From positions 1 through 34,218 of IMG/VR virus record IMGVR_UViG_3300043425_000685: DNA of 34,218 nucleotides. One strand, written 5' to 3'. This DNA comes from a virus. The translations under genes were made by a program, and so were the position numbers. Within the stretch, counting starts at the first letter, position 1. Each line of letters opens with the position of its first letter. This document shows positions 3,094-21,703 of this stretch, piece after piece. The notes beneath the pieces are model-generated. The model had not been told where the DNA came from, did no database searches, and saw only the letters and a program-made list of their open reading frames with translations.

Positions 3094-4001
3094 CACCAAA
3101 ACCCCGCAATCATTCCAGCGACTAAGAAGTCAACCGCATCATGCGTTTCCTCTTTTTCGCACGGTTTCCAATCATCACCAAAGTCTCGCTGAAATAAATA
3201 CTCCTCGCAGCGATCTCGACTAGTGGGCAATCTATCACTGGGAAACAAAGATTCGTCGAGCAATATTTCTGCCGTCTTAGACTGATCGCCATCTCGATAC
3301 GCATGATAAGCAGCCTGAAAGATCGCATTCTTTGGCTGCCTGTCTACCTGTGAGCGAAGCACGAAATCAGCTACATCATCGGTTTCGCCTGTAAGCTCCC
3401 CATCCAGCCAGATTTTTAGCACGTCAAGATGAGCAAGAAAACCGCGATTGATGACTGGAATCGCAGCCTCTTCGGTTGGAATTGGCGTGCCGCTCCAGGA
3501 GCCTGAGAGGTACTTGTAGAGCCGTTCCATGGTTAAGATAAGGCCAGGAGACATGATAACGCGAGAAATGCCTTCAGCAGTATCTGTCGGCCTTCCTAAT
3601 ACGTAACGATTTGCATCAACGTAAGCCTTGAACCGCGCAAGAGCTGGAAGGTCTTTACTCTTGTAAAGTTGCACGAAAAGCATCAGCGCCATGTCCTTTG
3701 AGAAGTCAGATTGACTTTCTCCCTTATCGAAGCAGTCTTTCTCAGGCGAGCGATACCAGCGGCCATTGTCTTCAGACTTGAAAAGATCGGCATCTTTACA
3801 CCCCCCACTGGCAAGGCATAAGGCAGTAAAGCCGACAGAGTCGCAACGTGAATGAGCATAACCATGCTCATTTAAAGCTTGCGATTGTAGCGATAGATAC
3901 AAGTCACGCTTCGCTAGCAATGGATCTGGAGCCGCTGGAGAATCTTTTTTTTCTGACTTCGAACACGAAAATAAAAGTAAAATTAAAAGATATTTCAACA
4001 T
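3093..4001 (-). CDS. Large lipoprotein, unknown function
   Basis: The 302-residue product has a very short lipoprotein signal (MLKYLLILLLFSC, lipobox cysteine C13) and a proline-rich linker (SPAAPDP). The mature part is helical, with cysteines in HSRCDSVGFTALCL, GGCKDAD and EKDCFD, and an SDFSKDMALMLF helix. The pattern resembles an all-helical toroid of the glycosidase or cyclase kind, where an early Asp or Glu and an SxxSxDM segment line a cleft, but I cannot name the family and no catalytic set is proved. A lipoprotein carried with phage late genes could be a superinfection-exclusion factor or a surface modifier. Its stop overlaps the ATG of the Tad1-like gene. The start has GGAGG nine bases upstream, inside a hairpin. 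Confidence 0.75.
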   Translation of the reverse strand: MLKYLLILLLFSCSKSEKKDSPAAPDPLLAKRDLYLSLQSQALNEHGYAHSRCDSVGFTALCLASGGCKDADLFKSEDNGRWYRSPEKDCFDKGESQSDFSKDMALMLFVQLYKSKDLPALARFKAYVDANRYVLGRPTDTAEGISRVIMSPGLILTMERLYKYLSGSWSGTPIPTEEAAIPVINRGFLAHLDVLKIWLDGELTGETDDVADFVLRSQVDRQPKNAIFQAAYHAYRDGDQSKTAEILLDESLFPSDRLPTSRDRCEEYLFQRDFGDDWKPCEKEETHDAVDFLVAGMIAGFW

Positions 4002-4897: not shown

Positions 4898-5440
4898 TTA
4901 AACGATTTTTCTTTGTCTTTTGCCTGTATAATGACTTACCGTTGATTGATGAAGCCCGTATTTTGCTGCAATATCCTTATTTCTCATTCCCATCTTATGA
5001 TCATTAAGTAGTTCTAAATATTGCTCATTAGATATTTTTGATGAATAGTGCTTTTCACCGCTGACTTTTTCTCGGAGCTTTCTAGCAAAATTATCTCTCA
5101 GGCCAATTTCCCATGAATGCCTAATATTTTCCGCATGAGTAACGTACTCCAAATTATCTATGCTATTATTTTTTTTATTGCCATCTTTATGATTGACTTG
5201 CATGCCATTTTCTTTTGGGCCTATCCATGCTAAGGCAACTAAAGTATGCACGAAAAAGGAATGACCTTTACCATTTTTGCATAAAGCAACTTTCATATAA
5301 CCCTCTGGAGATTTTGCAGCGGATAATTGCTTTATTCTTTTTATATGATAATTATGTGCTCTCACAGAAAGAGATAAAACTTTACCGTCTTTAGTGCATC
5401 CATAATTATCAAAACCAGGAATGATCTTGTATTCATCCAT
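4898..5440 (-). CDS. Free-standing HNH homing endonuclease (NUMOD4-HNH-HTH)
   Basis: The 180-residue protein has three parts. Residues 1-30 (YKIIPGFDNYGCTKDGKVLSL) match the NUMOD4 motif. Residues 80-110 hold the HNH_3 core VNHKDGNKKNNSIDNLEYVT, with H84 and two Asn positions in place. The C-terminus (LLNDHKMGMRNKDIAAKYGLHQSTV across two helices) is a helix-turn-helix that would help find the target site. Such genes spread by cutting an allele that lacks them. It starts at an ATG with AAGGA six bases upstream and lies between two fibre genes with no overlap, as expected for an insertion. The target is probably in the neighbouring fibre region of related phages. Confidence 0.9.
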   Translation of the reverse strand: MDEYKIIPGFDNYGCTKDGKVLSLSVRAHNYHIKRIKQLSAAKSPEGYMKVALCKNGKGHSFFVHTLVALAWIGPKENGMQVNHKDGNKKNNSIDNLEYVTHAENIRHSWEIGLRDNFARKLREKVSGEKHYSSKISNEQYLELLNDHKMGMRNKDIAAKYGLHQSTVSHYTGKRQRKIV

Positions 5441-5449
5441 ATATTTTCC

Positions 5450-6097
5450 TTAAAACTTAATAATGTAGTTTACGCCTTTGTTGAGAGGACGAGTTTCGTT
5501 GTCGCCGCCGCCGTTGACTGTTGATGCTGGGCACGTACCTGTTACGGTATGGGTATGGTCTATGTTAGTTGAGTTAGTTGTTGGATTCCTTCTGAATTGC
5601 TCTCCACCTGATGCATAGTTGCTTGCCCCTGATAGAGAACCGCCATTATACGAAAGAAAATCCCCTGAAGCACCAGTATGTGAGTGAGAAGTTAATGCCC
5701 CTGACCCTGTAGCTGCAGCAGAACCACCTGATAAAGATTGCGATGCCGTAGTAAAAGCATTTACAGGCACCTTAGTCTTAGTCGTCTGCCTACCACCCAA
5801 CGTAACAGAATCTAAACCGCTCGGACTTCCAACACCACGAAGAAAAAGGCCGCGATAATCAGGCACACGGAAATCTGTCCCTGCTGGTGCAGCGAAAGCT
5901 GAGCCGGTTGTCTCGTTTGTTTGTGTGTCGTATGTTGTCCCGATCAATGCAAATAAAGCTGCATAAGTAGTTCGTGATATTGCTGATCCATCGCATAAAA
6001 GCCAACCGCTCGGAGCAGTACCGCCTGCATAGGCTTTCACTGTTCCCACTGGCGAGGCTTCTGTGACTATCGCGCCTTGTTGAAATCGTTTAGCCAT
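5450..6097 (-). CDS. Tail collar-domain fibre protein A
   Basis: The 215-residue protein contains a phage tail collar domain: PVGTVKAYAGGTAPSGWLLC then DGSAISRTTYAALFALIG and FRVPDYRGLFLRG, at about residues 16-95. The rest is a low-complexity Ser/Gly/His region (SHSHTG, DHTHTVTG) ending in GGGDNETRPLNKGVNYIIKF. This is the usual structure of short tail fibre tips, where His-rich segments bind metal and the terminal strand closes the trimer. I start it at the ATG at 6097, which has GGAGG seven bases upstream, not seven codons earlier. It is a paralogue of the 6280-6879 gene: the collar domain and last 19 residues match closely while the middle differs. Confidence 0.85.
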   Translation of the reverse strand: MAKRFQQGAIVTEASPVGTVKAYAGGTAPSGWLLCDGSAISRTTYAALFALIGTTYDTQTNETTGSAFAAPAGTDFRVPDYRGLFLRGVGSPSGLDSVTLGGRQTTKTKVPVNAFTTASQSLSGGSAAATGSGALTSHSHTGASGDFLSYNGGSLSGASNYASGGEQFRRNPTTNSTNIDHTHTVTGTCPASTVNGGGDNETRPLNKGVNYIIKF

Positions 6098-6098
6098 A

Positions 6099-6272
6099 TT
6101 ATTCCCCTCCGCGAACAAAAGCTTGATAAGCCTCGATTACAGCGATTTGTGCTTCATCAGTCACTTCAACGGTTGTTTCCTCTGTTGCTACCGTAGCGAA
6201 GCCTTGAGCATCGAGTATATGCAAACCGTCTTCATTAAATAAGTATTCACCCGCTTGTATTGTGATCTGCAT
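6099..6272 (-). CDS. 57-aa protein between two collar fibre genes
   Basis: This short gene fills the gap between the two collar-domain genes. The product starts MQITIQAGEYLFNEDGLHIL, continues with an acidic strand-rich part (EETTVEVTDEAQI) and ends in a helix (AVIEAYQAFVRGGE). GAGGGG lies just before the ATG, and its TAA is one base from the next start. Small acidic proteins paired with collar fibres may help fold them or may attach to the fibre, but nothing here identifies this one. It is shorter than 60 residues, so automated calls could miss it. Its gene spacing and start signals match those of its neighbours, which makes it likely to be real. Confidence 0.75.
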   Translation of the reverse strand: MQITIQAGEYLFNEDGLHILDAQGFATVATEETTVEVTDEAQIAVIEAYQAFVRGGE

Positions 6273-6279
6273 ATTCCCC

Positions 6280-6879
6280 TCAAATCTTGATAATGTAGTT
6301 TACATAGGCGTTTATGGGACGGGTTTCGTTGTCGCCTGCTCCGATTGTTATTGTTTGCGCAGCAGCAGTCAAAGAATGACTTATCGATGGTGTCTGGGAA
6401 TCTGTGAAATGAGTTTGAGTAGCAAATGCACCAGCGGCGATACCTCCGCCAGTTCCTGTATCTCTGTTTGATCCGCCTTCAACATATGCTCTATGACTAT
6501 GTGCTGATTGCGATATTGAACCGCTAACAGAACTAGAAGCTGCACTAGCCGTTAAGCCATTTTTCTTAGTGGCCTCACCCTGCACACTCCCAACATTATC
6601 ACCAGTGTTCCCGCCTGAGTTTGCAGCAGTCCGAGATGCTCGGTCAGGATCTCGCGCGATTCCACCATCTCTTCTGCGCATAATGCGGCCACGATAATCA
6701 GGAAGATTGAACGTCGTCGAACCATCCCCAGAACCGTGAGCAGTAGAAATTGCAGAAAAGAGCGCAGCATAAGTTGAGCGCGATACAGCAGAGCCATCGC
6801 AAAGAATCCAGCCCTGCGGAGCCGTAGCACCCGCAAATGGAAGAACAACACCCGAAGGAACAAAGCCTAAATATGCCAT
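6280..6879 (-). CDS. Tail collar-domain fibre protein B
   Basis: The 199-residue protein starts MAYLGFVPSG at an ATG that shares its A with the upstream TAA (TAATG) and has GGGAG eight bases upstream. PSGVVLPFAGATAPQGWILC, DGSAVSRSTYAALFSAIS and FNLPDYRGRIMRR form a complete collar domain, followed by a Ser/Ala/Gly/His-rich stretch and the closing GAGDNETRPINAYVNYIIKI. The domain is shared with collar protein A. The two genes are also alike at the DNA level at their 3' ends (near 5455-5512 and 6285-6345), so they are a duplicated pair that could exchange tips by recombination. Confidence 0.85.
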   Translation of the reverse strand: MAYLGFVPSGVVLPFAGATAPQGWILCDGSAVSRSTYAALFSAISTAHGSGDGSTTFNLPDYRGRIMRRRDGGIARDPDRASRTAANSGGNTGDNVGSVQGEATKKNGLTASAASSSVSGSISQSAHSHRAYVEGGSNRDTGTGGGIAAGAFATQTHFTDSQTPSISHSLTAAAQTITIGAGDNETRPINAYVNYIIKI

Positions 6880-8282
6880 TAGAAAATCTCCCATCCTGAG
6901 CCGTTGCTCATGATCTGCAAAGATTCAAACCGCGCAATTGTTCGAGGCGTTACACCTGGATCAACGCCATCAATAGTTTGACTACTTGTCGTTGATATAT
7001 TTAAAAGCACGCCAACATTCATATTGGATTTTATCACAAAGATTCTACCAGCACCCGCTGAGGCAGCACTCGGCAATGTCACAGCATAGTTAGATGCACC
7101 GCTTGCAGATATAAAGTAATCGCTCAATGTGATCGAAGCTGCTGCAGTAACCGCTCGATATGAGCCTTGCTGTGCGTTGTATTCTATAGAATTCAAGGAT
7201 CTCATAGACCAAGAACTTAAAGCTGTATTCCAGCTAAATTCAACCCATCCGCGCTTCACATCGCAAACCAGCGACTCATTGGTTGCTAGGTTATCGATCT
7301 TTTCGCCTGTGGCCGGAGTAACCGTAAGGTTAAAAGTGTCCCAAGTTTCATTGGCATCAGATACCATTATGACTGAACCAGCGACACCAGCGGGTAGAGT
7401 TATCGTAAAAGCACCGCCTGCTGTATTCGTTAAATAGTGCGTGCCAGCTTGAGCAGTAAGCCCACTAGAAACTGGCGACGGTTGAAGCCCTCCGCCTCCC
7501 GAACCTCCGGCCAAAACCCAGCGAGATAATCCTGAATCATAGACAAGAGTAATTGCAGCATTGTTTTTCAGAGTAAAATCGACTCCGGTTCCAGTATAGA
7601 TCCGGTTTGCTGCAGTCGCTCCCGTATCATTCTTAACCGTGATAGATGATCCAGTCTCATTTACTAAAACGTAGAGCTTTCCACCCGATGGACTTCCGAT
7701 CATTTGTAGATCTGCAGCAGAACCAGTTATGCGCTGCAGAGTTTTTCCAGTGGTAGCCGTAATGGTGTTTGATGATATTGTCGCAGTCTCAGAAGTATAA
7801 TAAACATTCGCAGCTTTCCATTTAGAAGCCGCGTTATCATAGATTAAATATTGTCCATCGGTAGGGGAAGCCGTAAAATCGATGTCATCCAAGTCTTTGA
7901 GCTTTTCCGCTCCTCGCCCATGAGTAACGAAAACCGCGAAAGTATGAGGTCCGCCACTATTTGGCGTTGTTACATCGATTTTTGTTTTCAAAAATCCTGC
8001 AGTTGCCGCGATTGTCCATCCAGCTGCTACAGGATCGGAAACTCTCGTCAAGTTCGGATGAGTACCCGTGTATAAGAGCACCTTTAAGTCCGCAAACTGC
8101 ACACCAAAGTTATGGTCAATAGTCGTCACTGTTGAGTCAGCAACACTTGCTGCAGTGTCCCAACGTCCAGCTAGATCATCACCAATATTGGTATAAAGTG
8201 TTTCAATGCTCGCATGTAAACCGCTGCCTCCAGCAGTTCCTAGAGCGGGATGGTCTAGCTTGCTGCGCCCGACTATTGTCAT
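6879..8282 (-). CDS. Long fibre-like structural protein
   Basis: The 467-residue protein is beta-rich and poor in Cys, Met and Trp, as fibre shafts are. Residues 1-45 (IETLYTNIGDDLAGRWD) look like an attachment helix. A DLDDIDFTASPTDGQYLIYD segment near 130-150 is a motif seen repeatedly in phage fibres (DVDxSxxPxDGQxLxYD), with a W-containing strand next to it. A Gly-rich linker (GGSGGGG near 260) separates two similar halves that each carry SSIT- and TLP-type strands. The ATG overlaps the stop of the preceding gene (ATGA). Its position after the tail-tip genes and before the collar proteins suits a fibre shaft carrying the collar tips. Confidence 0.7.
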   Translation of the reverse strand: MTIVGRSKLDHPALGTAGGSGLHASIETLYTNIGDDLAGRWDTAASVADSTVTTIDHNFGVQFADLKVLLYTGTHPNLTRVSDPVAAGWTIAATAGFLKTKIDVTTPNSGGPHTFAVFVTHGRGAEKLKDLDDIDFTASPTDGQYLIYDNAASKWKAANVYYTSETATISSNTITATTGKTLQRITGSAADLQMIGSPSGGKLYVLVNETGSSITVKNDTGATAANRIYTGTGVDFTLKNNAAITLVYDSGLSRWVLAGGSGGGGLQPSPVSSGLTAQAGTHYLTNTAGGAFTITLPAGVAGSVIMVSDANETWDTFNLTVTPATGEKIDNLATNESLVCDVKRGWVEFSWNTALSSWSMRSLNSIEYNAQQGSYRAVTAAASITLSDYFISASGASNYAVTLPSAASAGAGRIFVIKSNMNVGVLLNISTTSSQTIDGVDPGVTPRTIARFESLQIMSNGSGWEIF

Positions 8283-15800: not shown

Positions 15801-18558
15801 CTGATATTATGTTTTTTATCTGATCCCATTTCTTTCCAAAATCATCTAATACAGAGCTTTGCTCATTAATCTCATCAGAAGCTAAAGCCATTTCATCTAT
15901 CAATTCCGAAATAGCAAAAAATACAGCAGTTAATCCAGCGGCTATTAAAGTTCCTTTTATGAATAAAGGATTGGTCAAAATAGCGATGGTAAATAATCCA
16001 ACTGATTTTGCTGCTGCTAAAAAATATGTACCTACATTTGCTATTAGTCCAATAAATCCAGCGGCTAATAATCTTTGCAAGTTTATTATAACAGCACTGA
16101 GTGAAGTAGTTGCTACAAGGTTGGCTTTCATTGAAATATTTAGAGCGTTGAATGCGGCAGTTAATGCTGTTTGTACAATAGTGCTATTGATAATAATCGC
16201 ATTCAAAAGCTTCCATGCGCTAACTAAACCTAGAACTGACAGAGATATTGATAAAATCAAACCTGATACTTTTAGGAAAACTGATATAACATCAGCTATT
16301 GACGAAGTAACGAACAATATCGGTTCTGGAATTTTATTCAAGATTACCCAAAATTCCCTCACAGCCCTACTGAGAGATAAACTAACTATTCCAGCCTTAC
16401 CGAATTTTAAAATGAATTGATCCATTAAAACATCTATAGACTTTTGAACGCCTGTTAAAGTTTTGAGTTCACTTGACACAGCGCCTACAATTGGAGCAGT
16501 TTGTTTAAATAATTCGTACAGTCTAGTCTGTAGTTTTTCTTGCTCGCTCATCTCTTCAACGGTTTTTCCAATTTGATACGCATATTTAGAATGTGCTAAA
16601 GCAGTATTCTGTAAATTCACCCCTACGGTAAGAAGTGAATCGGAAGACATTCCAGACAAACCTTTTGCTATTCTTAATATAATATCATTTAATTCATAAC
16701 CAGACGTTGAAGATAAATCCATACCAGCAACTAGAACTTTTTGCATATCTGAGAAACTAAGTTTTATTGCGGTTCCTTCAGCGACTAAAACTTTAACTGA
16801 CTTTTGTAGTTCTTGAGCTGAAAAATTAGTTTCATTCATTGCTTTATTTATGATGCTATTCCATTGCTCTATACTTCCAACCTTATCAGCCCCAAACTCT
16901 CTATTGAATCCTTTTATTGTGAACATAAATTGATTAGCTATTGCATCAGCTTTATTAGCTCTTTTAGTAAATTCTCCTAAAACATCTATCATTTGCGATC
17001 CTAGCCTATATGCTAGGCTTCCTATCTGGCCTATCAACAATGTAATGACGCTTGAAAGACCACCGAAAGCTATAGATGCTGCTGTTACTACTGCTCCAGT
17101 TAATTTAACAAGTGTATTTTCAGACTCAAGCATATGAAAACCAAGTACAGATAAAACCGATGAGAGTTTTTCTCCATATTCAGCTAATAATACGAAGCCA
17201 TTACCAGGTAGAGTTTTGAATAAAACTTTCATTATATTATTAAAATTAAAAGCATCTTTAGTAAGATTGGAAAACATCGATGAAACTTTATTTGACATCG
17301 TCGAAAATATGTTAACAAAATCTTGATTCGTTTTATTGAAATCTGAAACTAACTTGCTCCATCCAGACGAAAAATACCCGCTCATCAATGAAGAGAATTT
17401 TATAGTATTTTCTATGATTGATTGGAATCCTGCTTTTATATAGGAATCAATTTTGGCTATTGATATCGTTGTTACATTCATTATCGAGTTAAAAGCACCA
17501 ATAAACGCTATAGAACTTTTATTTGAAAATTCTAATATCTTATTTATTGAACTCGAAATAATCGATTTTATAGAGTTATTTAACAAGTCTAAAGATTTTA
17601 CAAAAGATTGTGCTGCATCTTCAAAAGATTTTATTTTAGTTATTCCGGTTTGATCATTAAAAAACTTAGCATATTCTTTAATTGACTTTAAAAATTCTGG
17701 AGCTGACGATATTAAATACTTTTCTGATGCGACAATTCCCAATGAAACAAGGTTTATTTGCCCTCCATATCGTAAATACGCTTCAGCTAAAACTGACAAA
17801 GATTGTACGATTACATTACTGTATTTTCCTAATGATCCTGATAGTTCTTTAAAATCACCAAAAACATCTAGCGATGAGCTGAATATTTTTTCTAATTGTT
17901 TAAACTTAGCGACGGTACTCTTGCCGATTTTTATAACCATTTCATCTATAGCATTTTCAAAATATCTTTCCGGCTTAGCCGCTCCTATGCCTTTTGCCCA
18001 TCTATTGAATGATTGAGCTATACCCTTTTCAGCTTCAGACAGTGGTATTTTAGTTAAATCAGCCCATGTAGTTTTGTTTTCAACCGTAAAAAATTCTTTA
18101 ATTTTCCACGTTAGAGCGTTTTTAACTCCAACTTTGGACACCCAATTGTTATATTTTTCAAATGTAAATTTAAGACCGTTTATAAATGAGCCAAAACTTT
18201 CATTTAACAGTTTAGTTCCTCTTATGATTCCTTTTACACCCTTTACAATATTACCTTCTAAATCAACTCCAACAATAACAGAGGCAAATTTAGTAGCATA
18301 AATTGCACCAAAAGCGACCAAGCTTTTGCTTAAAACATTAAATGCATCATTCATGGAAAATATAGATTTTTCCGTGTTGTTTATAGCTTGTTGATATGCC
18401 TGCTGAGTTCTAGTCTGTGCTTTTATAGTTTCATTGAGCCGATTTATAGAGGCATCTAGTTTCTCTATACTAGATTGAAAGTTCTGCGCTTCGTTTTTAG
18501 CTTTGTCACCATTTACTTTTATATCATAAACAAGTTGCTCATTAGTTATCGCCATCAT
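12880..18558 (-). CDS. Tape measure protein
   Basis: At 1892 residues this is the longest gene, lying straight after the tail assembly chaperone, which is the standard site of the tail length ruler. Visible parts in order are an N-terminal coiled coil (FQSSIEKLDASINRLNETIK), several hydrophobic helices between about residues 480 and 1000, a central charged helical rod (KSLEELKKAEFELSKFRKDR), an 11-residue proline-spaced repeat set, six W-rich 19-residue repeats, and the C-terminal GGLVENLANIPGMGTDTV with AALTPGEFIVNRRG, a classic tape measure ending. At about 1.5 angstrom per residue it predicts a tail near 280 nm. It starts at an ATGATG overlapping the preceding TGA. Hydrophobic segments may form the channel for DNA entry. 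Confidence 0.95.
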   Translation of the reverse strand: MMAITNEQLVYDIKVNGDKAKNEAQNFQSSIEKLDASINRLNETIKAQTRTQQAYQQAINNTEKSIFSMNDAFNVLSKSLVAFGAIYATKFASVIVGVDLEGNIVKGVKGIIRGTKLLNESFGSFINGLKFTFEKYNNWVSKVGVKNALTWKIKEFFTVENKTTWADLTKIPLSEAEKGIAQSFNRWAKGIGAAKPERYFENAIDEMVIKIGKSTVAKFKQLEKIFSSSLDVFGDFKELSGSLGKYSNVIVQSLSVLAEAYLRYGGQINLVSLGIVASEKYLISSAPEFLKSIKEYAKFFNDQTGITKIKSFEDAAQSFVKSLDLLNNSIKSIISSSINKILEFSNKSSIAFIGAFNSIMNVTTISIAKIDSYIKAGFQSIIENTIKFSSLMSGYFSSGWSKLVSDFNKTNQDFVNIFSTMSNKVSSMFSNLTKDAFNFNNIMKVLFKTLPGNGFVLLAEYGEKLSSVLSVLGFHMLESENTLVKLTGAVVTAASIAFGGLSSVITLLIGQIGSLAYRLGSQMIDVLGEFTKRANKADAIANQFMFTIKGFNREFGADKVGSIEQWNSIINKAMNETNFSAQELQKSVKVLVAEGTAIKLSFSDMQKVLVAGMDLSSTSGYELNDIILRIAKGLSGMSSDSLLTVGVNLQNTALAHSKYAYQIGKTVEEMSEQEKLQTRLYELFKQTAPIVGAVSSELKTLTGVQKSIDVLMDQFILKFGKAGIVSLSLSRAVREFWVILNKIPEPILFVTSSIADVISVFLKVSGLILSISLSVLGLVSAWKLLNAIIINSTIVQTALTAAFNALNISMKANLVATTSLSAVIINLQRLLAAGFIGLIANVGTYFLAAAKSVGLFTIAILTNPLFIKGTLIAAGLTAVFFAISELIDEMALASDEINEQSSVLDDFGKKWDQIKNIISAVSTTIVQSIKLIIIGIAGLGLVLKRIKLYLQELFSVEDDNLIASIIDVDSKIETLSQSIFNSFEKIDNAFASTGLAAKAFGQTIEQASDETKYLAIRQEALTKAGKSIDIVSLRVEVLGEEYEKVTQSIIKAKNQSELLAKKFLESTEDSKEVIEEYKKSLEELKKAEFELSKFRKDRLKELDDIITNSKKDIIKNSGDETKQIISDFDDRREAVRKLEEQLSRIGPVAGESAAKIIAAYSSLNTAEKAALKAAKERKQKEMEQEGNKVLKEQEEFLQKIIDKNNELKKSIAAPELTKRQEIAAALKDELISLDAQIERYIIMWGKNDDLVKKLQEQRTLLIENAKVQKEISEMEFGDWIDKFKESWNNLFGKEPVDKFLGYMQAGMDKLKSIAAPVTDSPAGKVVSDTMGKVWEGGEKVASMLGNAGGLMASGFTQAAGWIGSVIDVFMNADKYLSALIDFPKNFLRIILNIPSLIQKFLDTFPEGIRKIAEALPAVLVKIVDLIPDFIAAFLDALPTLFERVAEVIPVIFIKLIQMMPKLVELFVKGVAKMVQGVIKGLIRGFMNLFKGIKPPKIPIDTKSMQSAANKFVGSASKIFKVSELMDAAKDPLQNLTDGIEEAFKKGVDWFTQAWQWIWNGIKAVWQWVMDNIIRPIYEGIRAVWLWVWENILRPVYEAIKAVWIWVYDTIIKPFISGIKAVWDVVYQNIIKPLLNGIKEVWTFVYDNIISPFISALTGIWEFVDQNIIKPLSEIGQKIAEPLLDAFNGLKDFFGAIGKLFSSLFKLDFSGMKEAVNEAFGAAGEMFRKAFEEVMKPVKEVFNVFIDLINGLKIPAVGWSISAGRLGSWSGDLWGDIDLIPGDIMKFAKGGLVENLANIPGMGTDTVAAALTPGEFIVNRRGVEAAGLGLLNNINRGQSPSTGNTVVNIEVNIDAKTTMDEGYIRGKLIPQMTEELRRASLDGKFVISQRGIR
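13540..13900. repeat. Six 19-residue W-rich repeats in the tape measure gene
   Basis: Six units of 57 bases encode copies such as GIRAVWLWVWENILRPVYE, AIKAVWIWVYDTIIKPFIS and GIKAVWDVVYQNIIKPLLN. The pattern is GIKAVWxxVxxNIIxPxxx, with conserved Trp, Asn and Pro. At DNA level the plus strand shows recurring words near 13678, 13738, 13795 and 13855. The units were probably made by duplication and could set tail length by changing copy number. Confidence 0.8.
14153..14320. repeat. 11-residue proline-spaced repeats in the tape measure gene
   Basis: Five adjacent 11-residue units begin with a hydrophobic residue and Pro (LPAVLVKIVDL, IPDFIAAFLDA, LPTLFERVAEV, IPVIFIKLIQM, MPKLVELFVKG). This 11-residue spacing is known from tape measure proteins, where it forms a helical rod. 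The set lies upstream of the W-rich repeats in the protein. Confidence 0.7.
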
Positions 18559-18968
18559 TTACCCCTAGCAGGCTTAGGTGCTTTAGATTCTTTTCCATCA
18601 CCTAGAATTGCTCGCGCTCGACTATAAAACTTCTGGTCACTATAGCGTAACAGAAATACACCTAAAAGCTCAATGAACCATGCAGGCTGTTCCGATATTC
18701 CACCGGCAGACCATAGAGAACCAGTTTCAGCACAGATTACCAATGATAAGTAAATTTGCGATATGCTAGCATCCCAAGTCGCCTTGCCTGGGCAAAAGCC
18801 GAATTGCTCGCCTTCTTTCGTGATCATTATTGGAAATACCGAGCCATTATCTTTATGCGTGAAATCTTCGCGGGGATCGGCGCACCTTCGGAGAGCTTTG
18901 ATATCAGGAGGGCACTTTGCGCAAGAAAAAGCCTTTGCTCGCTCAGGCGGCGCAAAAGCTAATTCCAT
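18555..18968 (-). CDS. Tail assembly chaperone, -1 frame extension (T part of GT)
   Basis: This 137-codon frame lies between the chaperone and the tape measure, where the T part of a G/GT pair belongs. It begins MELAFAPPERAKAFSCAKCP, has more cysteines (C16, C19, C29) than neighbours and ends in a basic Lys/Pro tail. No ribosome binding site precedes its ATG. Reading upstream in the same frame passes open through CTA GCA ATA ATA into the A9 run at the end of the first chaperone frame, so translation most likely enters by a -1 slip, giving a fusion of about 300 residues. Chaperones of this kind coat the tape measure until the tube assembles around it. Independent start is the alternative. Confidence 0.8.
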   Translation of the reverse strand: MELAFAPPERAKAFSCAKCPPDIKALRRCADPREDFTHKDNGSVFPIMITKEGEQFGFCPGKATWDASISQIYLSLVICAETGSLWSAGGISEQPAWFIELLGVFLLRYSDQKFYSRARAILGDGKESKAPKPARGK

Positions 18969-18976
18969 TAGTGCTA

Positions 18977-19456
18977 TTATTTTTTTTTCAAATCTTCAGT
19001 GAACTTACTTGTGGCGTTTTGGCGTATAGTGAATAAATCCATTACCGCGCCTATAGCTTGCAAACCTTCCACAATTTCTTTAGAGCAGGAGCCATCACTA
19101 TCACGCTTGTATTGTATGCGATCAGGTAACGGCACATAGTCTGGATTCTCAATATCGACCAGAGCCTGTCTAACATCCTCCTGGATGAATGACATCTGAA
19201 TTTGAATTTGTCCGTCCTTCATCGTTGTCTGTGCATTCTGAACCCTGGCATTTTGATCAAAAGACAGTACTTTACGCAAAACAAACCGAGTCGGTTGCTC
19301 TCCGTCCTTAAACCGTAAAAGGGATTCATCCCCCGACTTGAGATAAGCCGCCCAAGTTTCATCATCAGTGATCGGATCTCCAGACCATAAAAGCGAAGAG
19401 TCAGCCCTTACCACACATTTTAGGGTTTCAGTTCTGCTTGGTAACTTCAGAGCCAT
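18977..19456 (-). CDS. Tail assembly chaperone (G part)
   Basis: I begin the gene at the ATG of MALKLPSRTETLKCVV, which has AAAGG seven bases upstream. A longer reading to 19558 adds 34 residues that merely shadow the repressor gene. The 159-residue protein has an N-terminal beta segment (TLKCVVRADSSLLW), a helix region and a C-terminal helix (IRQNATSKFTEDL) ending in the A9 run. Its position before the tape measure and the -1 partner identify it as the tail chaperone. In most siphoviruses it directly follows the tail tube gene. Here a regulatory island sits between them, and the start overlaps the repressor gene by 29 bases. Confidence 0.8.
   Translation of the reverse strand: MALKLPSRTETLKCVVRADSSLLWSGDPITDDETWAAYLKSGDESLLRFKDGEQPTRFVLRKVLSFDQNARVQNAQTTMKDGQIQIQMSFIQEDVRQALVDIENPDYVPLPDRIQYKRDSDGSCSKEIVEGLQAIGAVMDLFTIRQNATSKFTEDLKKK
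18980..18988 (-). other. A9 slippery site for programmed -1 frameshift
   Basis: The minus strand has nine A residues directly before the TAA of the first chaperone frame (TTG AAA AAA AAA TAA). Slipping one base back reads ATA ATA GCA CTA ATG GAA into the second frame with no stop. This is the expected site for the G/GT frameshift of siphoviruses. The A AAA AAA heptamer in the run is an efficient bacterial slip site; no clear downstream stimulatory hairpin was found by eye. Confidence 0.8.
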
Positions 19457-19616
19457 TTTGATGCCTTTCAAGATAAAATTTAATCGCTTTGCAAATCTCA
19501 GCGCTAACACTCGCAGAGCTAGCTTGCTTGATCTTATTAGCCAAATCATTGGGAACATTGATAGTTAACCGTATTGATTTTTCGAGACTTTTCGGCCTCC
19601 CTCTAGTCTTTTCCAT
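19428..19616 (-). CDS. Ribbon-helix-helix repressor, probable autoregulator
   Basis: The 62-residue protein has a basic start (KTRGRPKSLEK), a beta strand (SIRLTINVP) and two helices (NDLANKIKQASSA and VSAEICKAIKFYLER), the layout of CopG/Arc-type DNA-binding dimers. The ATG has GAGG six bases upstream. The gene is divergent from the plus-strand small genes, and the 141-base gap holds two 12-bp operator-like words plus a strong promoter facing the plus genes. It therefore probably represses that promoter and the second copy at 20046, and perhaps its own. On the minus side a TTGACA word lies at 19659-19664 without a good -10. Its stop lies inside the tail chaperone gene. Confidence 0.8.
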   Translation of the reverse strand: MEKTRGRPKSLEKSIRLTINVPNDLANKIKQASSASVSAEICKAIKFYLERHQNGSEVTKQN

Positions 19617-19666
19617 ACTTTACCTCGCTGGCTTAACCGTGCCAAAAAAATGTTGGATTGTCAAAT

Positions 19667-19707
19667 TTAAGCGCATAACTTACTCTTGACTTTAATTATG
19701 CGCTTAA
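19667..19707. promoter_or_regulatory. Paired operator-like inverted repeat
   Basis: TTAAGCGCATAA (19667-19678) is the exact reverse complement of TTATGCGCTTAA (19696-19707), centre to centre 29 bases. Each word is itself close to palindromic around GCGC. The right word fills the spacer of the plus-strand promoter, so a bound repressor would block RNA polymerase. The left word lies on the side of the repressor gene. The ribbon-helix-helix protein next door is the natural candidate binder. Confidence 0.7.
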
Positions 19708-19714
19708 CTATATT
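19686..19714 (+). promoter_or_regulatory. Sigma70-type promoter P1 for plus-strand small genes
   Basis: TTGACT (19686-19691) and TATATT (19709-19714) are separated by exactly 17 bases and differ from consensus at one position each. The spacer contains the operator word TTATGCGCTTAA. Transcription would start near 19721 and run into the gene at 19758. Confidence 0.8.
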
Positions 19715-19757
19715 CCTTCTTGTCAGGAAGTAAAGAGAAATAACCGGAGAGAAGAAA

Positions 19758-20036
19758 ATGACAGTAGCTCAAATCATCCTCGATCAAATCAAAACTATGG
19801 ACAAAATGGCTCTATGGGCATGGGGAGCGAAGAACTATGTTGGCGGGAAAACAATGTTGCAGTTTGATTGTAATGGTCCAAAACATAAGGGGAAAATCCA
19901 AATCCATTTAACCCCCGCAGACGAATACCGCATCGAAACTTGGAAAATACGGGGAGTTAACGCAAAGAAACTAGACACAGTTGACGGCGTTCATGCTGAA
20001 GACTTGGTCATAGTCCTTGATGAATTGATTGGCTGA
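19758..20036 (+). CDS. Small conserved-type phage protein (92 aa), unknown function
   Basis: The ATG is preceded by a GGAGAGAAG ribosome binding site. The protein starts with a helix (VAQIILDQIKTMDKMALW), then AWGAKNYVGGKTMLQFDC, a KIQIHLTPADEYRIETWKIRG strand pair and a helix at the C-terminus (HAEDLVIVLDELIG). The pattern GAKNFVGG...ITLxPxDxYxVExxKxRG...YADxLxxxF is one I recall from small phage proteins of unknown role. It is the first gene after promoter P1 and so the first target of the repressor. Expression would be independent of the late structural operon on the other strand, as for a moron or an early gene. Confidence 0.8.
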   Translation: MTVAQIILDQIKTMDKMALWAWGAKNYVGGKTMLQFDCNGPKHKGKIQIHLTPADEYRIETWKIRGVNAKKLDTVDGVHAEDLVIVLDELIG

Positions 20037-20045
20037 TTATTTCCC

Positions 20046-20074
20046 TTGACTTTAATTATGCGCTTAATTATATT
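20046..20074 (+). promoter_or_regulatory. Sigma70-type promoter P2, near-identical copy of P1
   Basis: TTGACT (20046-20051), a 17-base spacer holding TTATGCGCTTAA, and TATATT (20069-20074) repeat P1. Positions 20045-20085 match 19685-19725 over 41 bases with a single difference. The copy lies nine bases after the stop of the 19758 gene and would drive the next two genes. Confidence 0.8.
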
Positions 20075-20097
20075 CCTTCTTGTCAGAGGGAATATAA
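20068..20097 (+). promoter_or_regulatory. Perfect 9-bp inverted repeat at start of second transcript
   Basis: TTATATTCC (20068-20076) is matched by GGAATATAA (20089-20097) across 12 bases. The left arm covers the P2 -10 box and the right arm lies just before the AAGGAG of the 20112 gene. It may be a second operator or, in read-through RNA from P1, a hairpin. P1 does not have the full right arm. Confidence 0.55.
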
Positions 20098-20111
20098 CTA
20101 AGGAGAGAGAA

Positions 20112-20321
20112 ATGGATCAGCAACAAAGAATAAAAGCAGACTGGGATAAAGCATCACAAGGGAATTTGCAGGTCATAGTTCATGATGATTGCATTTTTGC
20201 ATATGGCACAGAATTAGAATGTTTAAGGCTTTTCCATTACTACAAAGGCAACGAAAAAACTCAAACATGGTTTAGCAAGAATTTAAATACATGGATTTTT
20301 AAACTAGAAAGGAAAATCTAA
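20112..20321 (+). CDS. Hypothetical protein (69 aa), repressor-controlled
   Basis: The start MDQQQRIKADWDKAS follows AAGGAGAGAGAA; an upstream ATG at the promoter would place the -10 box inside the coding part and is rejected. The protein has a helix, two strands (LQVIVHDDCIFAYG), a second helix (TELECLRLFHYYKG) and a W-rich end (QTWFSKNLNTWIFKL). It looks like a small alpha/beta fold without a known motif. Its stop overlaps the ATG of the next gene (TAATG). Promoter P2 and the operator word sit directly upstream. Confidence 0.75.
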   Translation: MDQQQRIKADWDKASQGNLQVIVHDDCIFAYGTELECLRLFHYYKGNEKTQTWFSKNLNTWIFKLERKI

Positions 20322-20485
20322 TGACCCCAAAAGAAATCTTTACCCAGTTCCAGGAAGAAAAACAAAGCCGCATTAAAAGCGGCTGGTCTGAGCGGGAAGC
20401 CGGTGCCCTAGCAATCGAGGACACGGCTTGGATGTTAGATCTAAGTATCGCTGATGTTTGCCGCGCTATCTCATTAAATGAATGA
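20321..20485 (+). CDS. Hypothetical protein (54 aa), last gene of the plus island
   Basis: The ATG overlaps the stop of the preceding gene, with AAAGGA eight bases upstream. The 54-residue product is helical: TPKEIFTQFQEEKQSRIKSG, then WSEREAGALAIEDTAWMLDL and a final helix SIADVCRAISLNE. There is a helix-turn-helix-like feel to the middle, but I would not assign it. The gene ends 12 bases inside the convergent tail tube gene. It is shorter than 60 residues, so it could be missed by automated calls; its coupling and codon pattern argue that it is real. Confidence 0.7.
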   Translation: MTPKEIFTQFQEEKQSRIKSGWSEREAGALAIEDTAWMLDLSIADVCRAISLNE

Positions 20486-21703
20486 AATAGTCAACTCATC
20501 TCCAGCGCTACTATCCACGTATGCTGTGCCCTCATAAGTAACTGGGATCGATCCGGTCTCAGGCACACTGATCGAAGGTACTGAGAATTCCACATTGGGA
20601 AGGTCAATTTTCAAGTGACGCCCTGAAGCTGAGCCAAGAATCAACTCGATATCCTGAGATTCAAAACGCTGGATAGCATTATAAAGCTCAACCGTGTCAT
20701 CATTTAAATTCACTTCTACAGAAACTGTGCAAGTCATTCGGTTTGCAGCCACGAAATAGGAGCCATGCAAAGCATCTTCGCCATAGCAATAGTTAACTGC
20801 TTCATGTGCGTTTTCGATGGTGACAGTACCATTTCGCAAGCAAAGCATGTTAAGGCCAGAAATATCGAACGATCCAACTAGGCCAGTAACTGGATTGTTT
20901 ATTGCAGTTCTAGTAGCTGGTTCATAATAGCAAAGGTAAACAGGAGTGCCGGAACCGTCTGCGTCAGCAAGCGGAGCACCGCCAACGGTTATAATATCTC
21001 CAGCAATAGAAGTAATCGTTCGAGGAGAACCGCTTGGAGTGTCAGCACTGCGAGTAGTTCCATCAGCTTCGATAATCATCACAAGCCCACCAACTTGCAT
21101 TCGCTTACCTTCTCCGGTTTGAAGCGTTATAGTATTCCCTGCATTGTTATCGATTGTGCTTTTACCGATACCGATTAAAAAAGCTTCCGCTCCCATCCCG
21201 CGAAATTCTTGTTGTGCCCTGCCATCCCCAGGGAATGTCAGCGTAGCACCATCAACAAAACAGCCGCGTGCCTGTTTGGCCCACTTATCCCCTACCTCAA
21301 AAATGCTAAAAGTCACACTCGGCTGATCTTCCGAAGTGTAAACCGCGCCTGATGTTGTAACTTCTTTTCCCATCAAGCTTTTATAGAGTAAACGTACTCC
21401 AGTATCTATTTCAGCTGAGCTTGCAGCCCCAAGGCTTGTATCGATATTAAAGAGCATAGGGATTGTCCAGCTAAGCTCTTTCTTGCCTTTGATTGATCCG
21501 GTATGATGGCGACCAGACTTATGAGGAGAACTTTCAAGCGGCTGGCTATATTCGATTGAAGTTCCGCCAATTGTATATATGAAATCGGCGGAAGTAGGCG
21601 CAATTAATTGCCCACGAGTCGTTTCGAGCTTGACGTAAATGTCTTGCTCTAGCGAGCTGCTGTCATTAGTTGAGTTGTATATTGATGCGAAATTCTTAGC
21701 CAT
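20474..21703 (-). CDS. Major tail tube protein
   Basis: The 409-residue protein has the order of a siphovirus tail tube subunit: an N-terminal arm with IYVKLETTRGQLIAPTSADF, a strand-rich core (KKELSWTIPMLFNID, GATLTFPGDGRAQQEFRG) and C-terminal strands (VSVEVNLNDDTVELYNAI, IPVTYEGTAYVD). An insertion of about 80 residues near 180-260 may be an exposed decoration domain. It lies between the tail completion gene and the chaperone. The tube polymerises around the tape measure. The ATG has AAGGGG about nine bases upstream. It converges with the plus-strand island by 12 bases. Confidence 0.8.
   Translation of the reverse strand: MAKNFASIYNSTNDSSSLEQDIYVKLETTRGQLIAPTSADFIYTIGGTSIEYSQPLESSPHKSGRHHTGSIKGKKELSWTIPMLFNIDTSLGAASSAEIDTGVRLLYKSLMGKEVTTSGAVYTSEDQPSVTFSIFEVGDKWAKQARGCFVDGATLTFPGDGRAQQEFRGMGAEAFLIGIGKSTIDNNAGNTITLQTGEGKRMQVGGLVMIIEADGTTRSADTPSGSPRTITSIAGDIITVGGAPLADADGSGTPVYLCYYEPATRTAINNPVTGLVGSFDISGLNMLCLRNGTVTIENAHEAVNYCYGEDALHGSYFVAANRMTCTVSVEVNLNDDTVELYNAIQRFESQDIELILGSASGRHLKIDLPNVEFSVPSISVPETGSIPVTYEGTAYVDSSAGDELTISFI

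Follow-up and report, generated by a model that had tools for sequence, protein, structure and literature searches.

In anti-CRISPR (acr) operons, Aca repressors bind inverted repeats, one of which always lies in the core promoter (PMC9410906). The Aca families described are helix-turn-helix (HTH) proteins, and aca follows acr in one operon (PMC9410906). On the Bacillus plasmid p576, several strong establishment-gene promoters are under the control of a ribbon-helix-helix (RHH) repressor, Regp576; its authors contrast it with phage repressors of this kind, which they state to be helix-turn-helix (PMC8708921). In archaeal viruses, one promoter block is common to many anti-defence genes (PMC11065993). 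A further group of described units comprises the morons of late operons, including those of SPP1 (PMC6316719), Tab in JBD26 (PMC10884400) and STMMW_20121 (PMC7067206). As far as the available portions of these reports go, such units are additional genes or transcription units placed between conserved virion genes, sometimes antisense, and a dedicated repressor with repeated operators is not described there.

The locus analyzed here lies in a viral record of 34,218 bases (the window, meaning the whole stretch of DNA analyzed), in which the late genes run on the minus strand from the terminase small subunit to the endolysin. Between the tail tube and tail assembly chaperone genes lies an island of one minus-strand gene encoding a 62-aa protein (rhh) and three small plus-strand genes (Table 1). 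We read the island as an RHH-repressed accessory cassette, that is, a moron with its own regulation, placed antisense in the late operon between tube and chaperone, and put the probability of this reading at about two in three. The original prediction had placed an RHH gene facing three plus-strand genes at 19616-20485; the arrangement was as described, but that interval reaches only the start codon of rhh, the gene itself occupying 19428-19616. No close DNA relatives of the window were found in the phage collection.

Table 1. Coordinates of the island, its predicted regulatory elements and the flanking late genes in the window.
Feature	Position	Strand	Description
Tail assembly chaperone gene	18977-19456	-	Profile matches at the same place in relatives; right neighbour of the insertion
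rhh	19428-19616	-	62-aa RHH protein, predicted repressor
O1 (predicted operator)	19667-19678	+	TTAAGCGCATAA; 7 bases upstream of the P1 -35
P1	19686-19714	+	TTGACT (19686-19691), 17 nt, TATATT (19709-19714); precedes gene 1
O2 (predicted operator)	19696-19707	+	TTATGCGCTTAA within the P1 spacer
Gene 1	19758-20036	+	92 aa; phrog_9437 / phrog_28795; GGAG at 19746-19749
P2	20046-20074	+	TTGACT (20046-20051), 17 nt, TATATT (20069-20074); precedes genes 2 and 3
O3 (predicted operator)	20056-20067	+	TTATGCGCTTAA within the P2 spacer
Hairpin	20063-20102	+	Spans the P2 -10 and reaches part of the gene 2 ribosome-binding site
Gene 2	20112-20321	+	69 aa; phrog_26253 family; AAGGAG at 20100-20105
Gene 3	20321-20485	+	54 aa; start codon overlaps gene 2 stop; overlaps tail tube 3' end by 12 bases
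Terminator-like hairpin with T run	20366-20384	-	89 bases past the tube stop, antisense inside gene 3
Tail tube gene	20474-21703	-	Pfam PF18906 (2.1e-11) and relatives; left neighbour of the insertion in late-operon order

Like acr-aca operons (PMC9410906), the island combines small phage genes and strong promoters with a small repressor alongside and one or two inverted repeats, and O2 and O3 each place such a repeat in a core promoter. However, the island repressor is of the RHH type, divergent and in line with the late operon, and no small gene is a known Acr. Judged from its sequence, the island probably works like acr-aca operons and the p576 establishment genes, yet by the tests made it does not appear to be a member of the acr-aca kind. 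With p576 it shares an RHH repressor, repeated operators, several strong small-gene promoters and, as we propose for the island, transient expression on entry into a repressor-free cell; p576 differs in being a plasmid, in having its operator TTATCCCnnTTATCCC outside the -35/-10 spacer and in giving reg its own regulated promoter. The Aca8 regulons of archaeal viruses (PMC11065993) resemble the island in that several unrelated small accessory genes share one upstream regulatory sequence and have a small repressor encoded close by, but their promoters are archaeal, their repressor is a winged HTH protein and their genes mostly lie near genome ends, whereas the island has bacterial-type promoters within a late operon.

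The insertion was examined by comparison with other phages. Scans with the tail tube protein recovered relatives at 45 to 73% identity, apart from one 100% identical contig, and the tube-chaperone junctions of relatives (L035-L109) were scored. Across 67 distinct junctions the two genes were neighbours, mostly less than 200 bp apart, and the island was present in none. Thus, as originally proposed, a repressor-operator cassette has been inserted between tube and chaperone genes that are adjacent in relatives. An intrinsic terminator directly followed the tube gene in 42 of the 67 junctions, compared with 2.4 expected after shuffling of single bases. The terminator-like hairpin inside gene 3 (-11.9 kcal/mol, z -3.2) is probably the tube terminator found at this place in relatives. 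A terminator directly after the tail tube gene could, as a separate matter, set the tube-to-chaperone ratio.

Other inserts after the tube stop were an Ant/Rha-like regulator (L082), a zinc-finger protein (L091) and a tail-fibre-like protein (L093), and serine recombinases were inserted at the junction in L092 and, by its sequence, in L095. Because a few relatives carry unrelated inserts there, the tube-chaperone site is an insertion spot. The description of this site as the most conserved part of the late operon was therefore too strong, since a terminator normally occupies the junction and some relatives have other inserts there. Among the junctions compared, an antisense cassette with predicted repression was found in this phage only. 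Of four moron features tested, the island has two: its insertion between genes adjacent in relatives and, by sequence, its own promoters. The other two were not seen: its G+C content (39.6%) is close to that of the window (41.6%), and after gene 3 no plus-strand terminator-like site was found, only a minus-strand one.

A unit of this kind could instead serve lysogenic conversion, with a temperate phage expressing genes 1-3 from the prophage under RHH control, as do morons that lie antisense to the lytic genes of prophages. Antisense placement in a late operon is typical of prophage moron genes (PMC7067206), and the unrelated accessory genes taken up at the junction include the Ant/Rha-like regulator and the serine recombinases. 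However, a tyrosine integrase was found in only 2 of 40 relatives and a serine recombinase in none of 28 of the larger relatives, all counted on incomplete contigs, and, within the sensitivity of a pattern search, 84,980 genomes of bacteria and archaea yielded no tail tube relative. We consider lysogenic conversion unlikely; the evidence, drawn from incomplete records of which this one holds late genes only, favours early use in lytic infection.

The two promoters of the island are almost the same sequence. P1 and P2 each match 10 of 12 consensus bases, and the blocks that contain them form one 47-nt direct repeat, 94% identical and spaced by 360 bp. The 41-42 bases singled out in the original prediction as two near-identical TTGACT-17-TATATT promoters differ at one position. 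Since the repeat block stops about where transcription should begin, the promoter has been duplicated and the leader has not. A search of IMG/VR for the exact 22-mer of P1 and P2 returned the identical contig only. The hairpin at P2 (-16.4 kcal/mol, z -6.2) is formed by an inverted repeat that is 89% complementary, and it is present only in RNA begun upstream of P2. In such read-through RNA, the hairpin could keep gene 2 dependent on P2.

A 12-bp word, TTAWGCGCWTAA, is found, as had been noted from the sequence, in both promoter spacers, where the copies at 19696-19707 and 20056-20067 each begin ten bases after the start of the respective -35. A third copy, O1, precedes the rhh start codon by about 50 bases. 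These three are the only exact copies in the 34,218 bases, all within the island, compared with 0.025 expected under an order-1 Markov model; when one mismatch was allowed, four copies were found against 0.70 in shuffles. O1 had been called an inverted copy 29 bases from the word in P1. The distance is correct, but the label is nearly meaningless because the word almost equals its own reverse complement. If the word belongs with the repressor, relatives lacking the repressor should not keep it; consistent with this expectation, TTAWGCGCWTAA was found in 0 of 40 relatives without the island (~1.4 Mb scanned). A literature search for the word returned unrelated sequences only.

The 62-aa protein reads as an RHH protein from several weak, mostly one-directional matches. 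The strand-helix-helix sequence pattern was recovered through weak matches to PHROG families named 'transcriptional repressor' (0.016) and 'Arc-like repressor' (0.059), through weak PDB matches to ORF56 (0.17) and a CopG-family RHH protein (0.29), and by profile comparison, in which hhalign aligned the protein with a profile of phage Arc-like proteins at P 0.0016, compared with 0.69 for a control profile. The top PHROG match (0.0019) was to a family named methyltransferase and covered residues 22-56 only. Pfam gave no match. The single-sequence structure model, of low confidence (pLDDT 66), has an extended N-terminus followed by two helices and gave no useful Foldseek match. A scan of IMG/VR with the single protein recovered the identical contig only, and tblastn against phages and plasmids gave nothing reliable, the one ParG-like match being at 0.6. 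The final 29 bases of rhh overlap the start of the chaperone gene. No good minus-strand promoter for rhh was found; the -10 of the best candidate sits at or next to the start codon.

Many RHH proteins encoded near small genes are autoregulating antitoxins. The rhh product could on these grounds be the antitoxin of a toxin-antitoxin pair, with one of the small genes encoding the toxin. However, the genes are divergent and do not form a single operon with a co-transcribed toxin of known family, and the small proteins matched no toxin family in Pfam, NCBIfam or PADLOC. Two separate repressed promoters would be unusual for such a pair, and only a short tail follows the second helix of the RHH protein. 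Thus, a toxin-antitoxin pair is highly improbable.

The assignment of the word to the RHH repressor draws its strongest support from a second phage. The paired pattern TTAAGCGCWTAA-N5-35-TTAWGCGCTTAA was searched across the whole of IMG/VR and was found in two contigs. One is the identical copy of this phage; the other is the unrelated contig IMGVR_UViG_3300000114_000608 (L111), a 4.5-kb sequence with terminase and sigma-factor genes. A control search of 786 genomes of two clostridial orders (~2 Gb) found no instance of the pattern. As in the island, an RHH gene in L111, here encoding a 70-aa protein, faces small genes, two in number, and the word lies both in a promoter spacer and upstream: the promoter TTGACG-17-TAGGAT (region 3220-3310) has TTATGCGCTTAA in its spacer and TTAAGCGCTTAA 40 bp upstream. 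L111 differs in coming from an unrelated phage, in having terminase and sigma-factor genes of its own, in carrying unrelated small genes and in the position of the locus outside a tail operon.

Profile alignment of the two RHH proteins covers the predicted DNA-contact strand and the helices and places R-T-N here against R-S-T in L111, at the strand positions that contact DNA in Arc. Direct BLASTP between the two proteins gave no alignment, which makes them distant, and the common word may reflect convergence. The word was absent near other Arc-like relatives of the L111 protein. Upstream of Arc-like RHH genes of gut phages and inoviruses (L200, L201, L202, L204, L205), inspection by eye suggested repeated palindromes particular to each, such as ACATCTTACACAAGATG in L202. 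Having such palindromes is usual for RHH genes, and these loci could form a set from which RHH-operator pairs are learned. Taken from the sequences of two phages, these data suggest that the word is the operator of the RHH repressor.

The word could also be read as part of the promoter, P1 and P2 being copies of a general early promoter of the phage and the RHH protein acting elsewhere. In a sister phage, G004, two early small genes, one of them a relative of gene 1, are preceded by a near-identical 68-nt block, and the record lacks the early region of the phage, where further copies may lie. This explanation is nevertheless doubtful, in that the third copy of the word, O1, has no promoter block around it, the word in L111 recurs with a different -35 and -10 and again faces an RHH gene, and no further copy is present within the 34 kb. 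The island is known from a single phage, as might be expected if its words and promoters were functionless or if it were an assembly join. However, the count of the word, the duplication of the promoter, the context of the insertion and the independent locus in L111 all argue against chance, and a second contig, from another record, represents the same phage with 100% identity over 14,620 bases and the same island junctions. The likelihood of chance or artefact is consequently very slight. This contig carries the only other copy of the island found.

The small genes had been described as having no assigned function. Searches of Pfam, PHROGs, NCBIfam and PADLOC found no family of known function for genes 1-3 apart from one borderline match, although genes 1 and 2 do have families. 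The family of gene 1, of ~100 aa, is found in unrelated phages of Enterobacter, Pseudomonas, Microcystis, Sinorhizobium and Tunturiibacter and also on plasmids. A scan with a closer sequence set, the first alignment being too diverse for scanning, found it in bacteria and archaea as well, in at least 154 genome stretches. Its phage relatives sit amid small genes without known function. The model of the gene 1 product is confident (pLDDT 90), with a helix, five strands and a helix, and the structures related to it in BFVD belong to uncharacterised phage proteins. The borderline match, of gene 1 to Pfam Coa1 (22.2 bits against a cut-off of 22), was not used to assign a function, nor were the weak structural matches in the PDB, where Foldseek found none at 0.001 and the best VIA match had Z 6.5.

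In the sister phage G004 (L110), the gene 1 relative is close to the end of the contig. One copy of the 68-nt promoter-like block precedes it, and another precedes a small gene beside it. These blocks, at 935-1002 and 1413-1480 of L110, are 87% identical, and inner words GTGCTTGCA repeat. Gene 2 has relatives in the large Sinorhizobium phages phiM12, phiN3 and phiM7. Its start was set at the ATG at 20112 because the 91-aa frame listed from the TTG at 20046 begins within P2. A match to the gene 2 family in one relative was rejected, as it has an internal stop and scored only 15.6 bits. Single-protein scans of IMG/VR with genes 1 and 2 recovered the identical contig only, and no relatives of gene 3 were found. 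For the small proteins, the likeliest class of role is protection from host defences or takeover of the host.

The promoter and operator anatomy, the insertion relative to other phages, the absence of the word from those phages, its recurrence in L111 and the co-orientation of rhh with the late genes are features of the sequences themselves; from them we infer binding of the word by the RHH protein, repression, early timing and late shut-off. Under the repressed-cassette reading, P1 and P2 would be ordinary sigma-70-type promoters that open when phage DNA enters a repressor-free cell, P1 driving gene 1 and P2 driving genes 2 and 3. The 62-aa RHH protein would bind TTAWGCGCWTAA, and because O2 and O3 sit between -35 and -10, the bound repressor is proposed to keep RNA polymerase off. 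O1 would be a second site at P1, a place for autoregulation of rhh, or both. Since rhh reads in the same direction as the late operon and runs into the start of the chaperone gene, late RNA that reaches that gene also carries rhh. We propose, therefore, that repressor rises as the late genes turn on and silences P1 and P2. Their closure would matter because both promoters fire head-on toward the tail tube gene. Thus, the small genes probably fire early in infection and are off before tail assembly, and the cassette is probably silenced so that late transcription is not opposed.

A more specific and tentative possibility is that the island is an RHH counterpart of the Aca switch: with rhh in the late operon, the onset of tail-gene expression would stop an anti-defence cassette that is expressed early and points toward the late genes, and the read-through hairpin would tie translation of gene 2 to its own promoter. 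In this arrangement, the late operon would carry the off-switch for an early cassette that opposes it, and the shared operator and RHH repressor would mark the genes under their control. If binding holds, looking for TTAWGCGCWTAA beside an RHH gene would be a way to find phage accessory genes missed by HTH-based Aca searches, and genes 1-3 become ranked candidates for anti-defence.

Two minor observations concern the surrounding late genes. The chaperone gene ends in GAAAAAAAAATAA (18970-18990, minus strand), and from a run of nine A residues there the -1 frame continues open into the gene that follows. The resulting fusion (18555-19456, minus strand; ~300 aa) is a candidate for programmed frameshifting like that of lambda G/GT. 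Elsewhere in the window, the adjacent genes at 5450-6118 and 6280-6894 share matches to the same tail collar fibre families and resemble a tandem duplication, and an HNH endonuclease gene (4898-5440) adjoins this pair.
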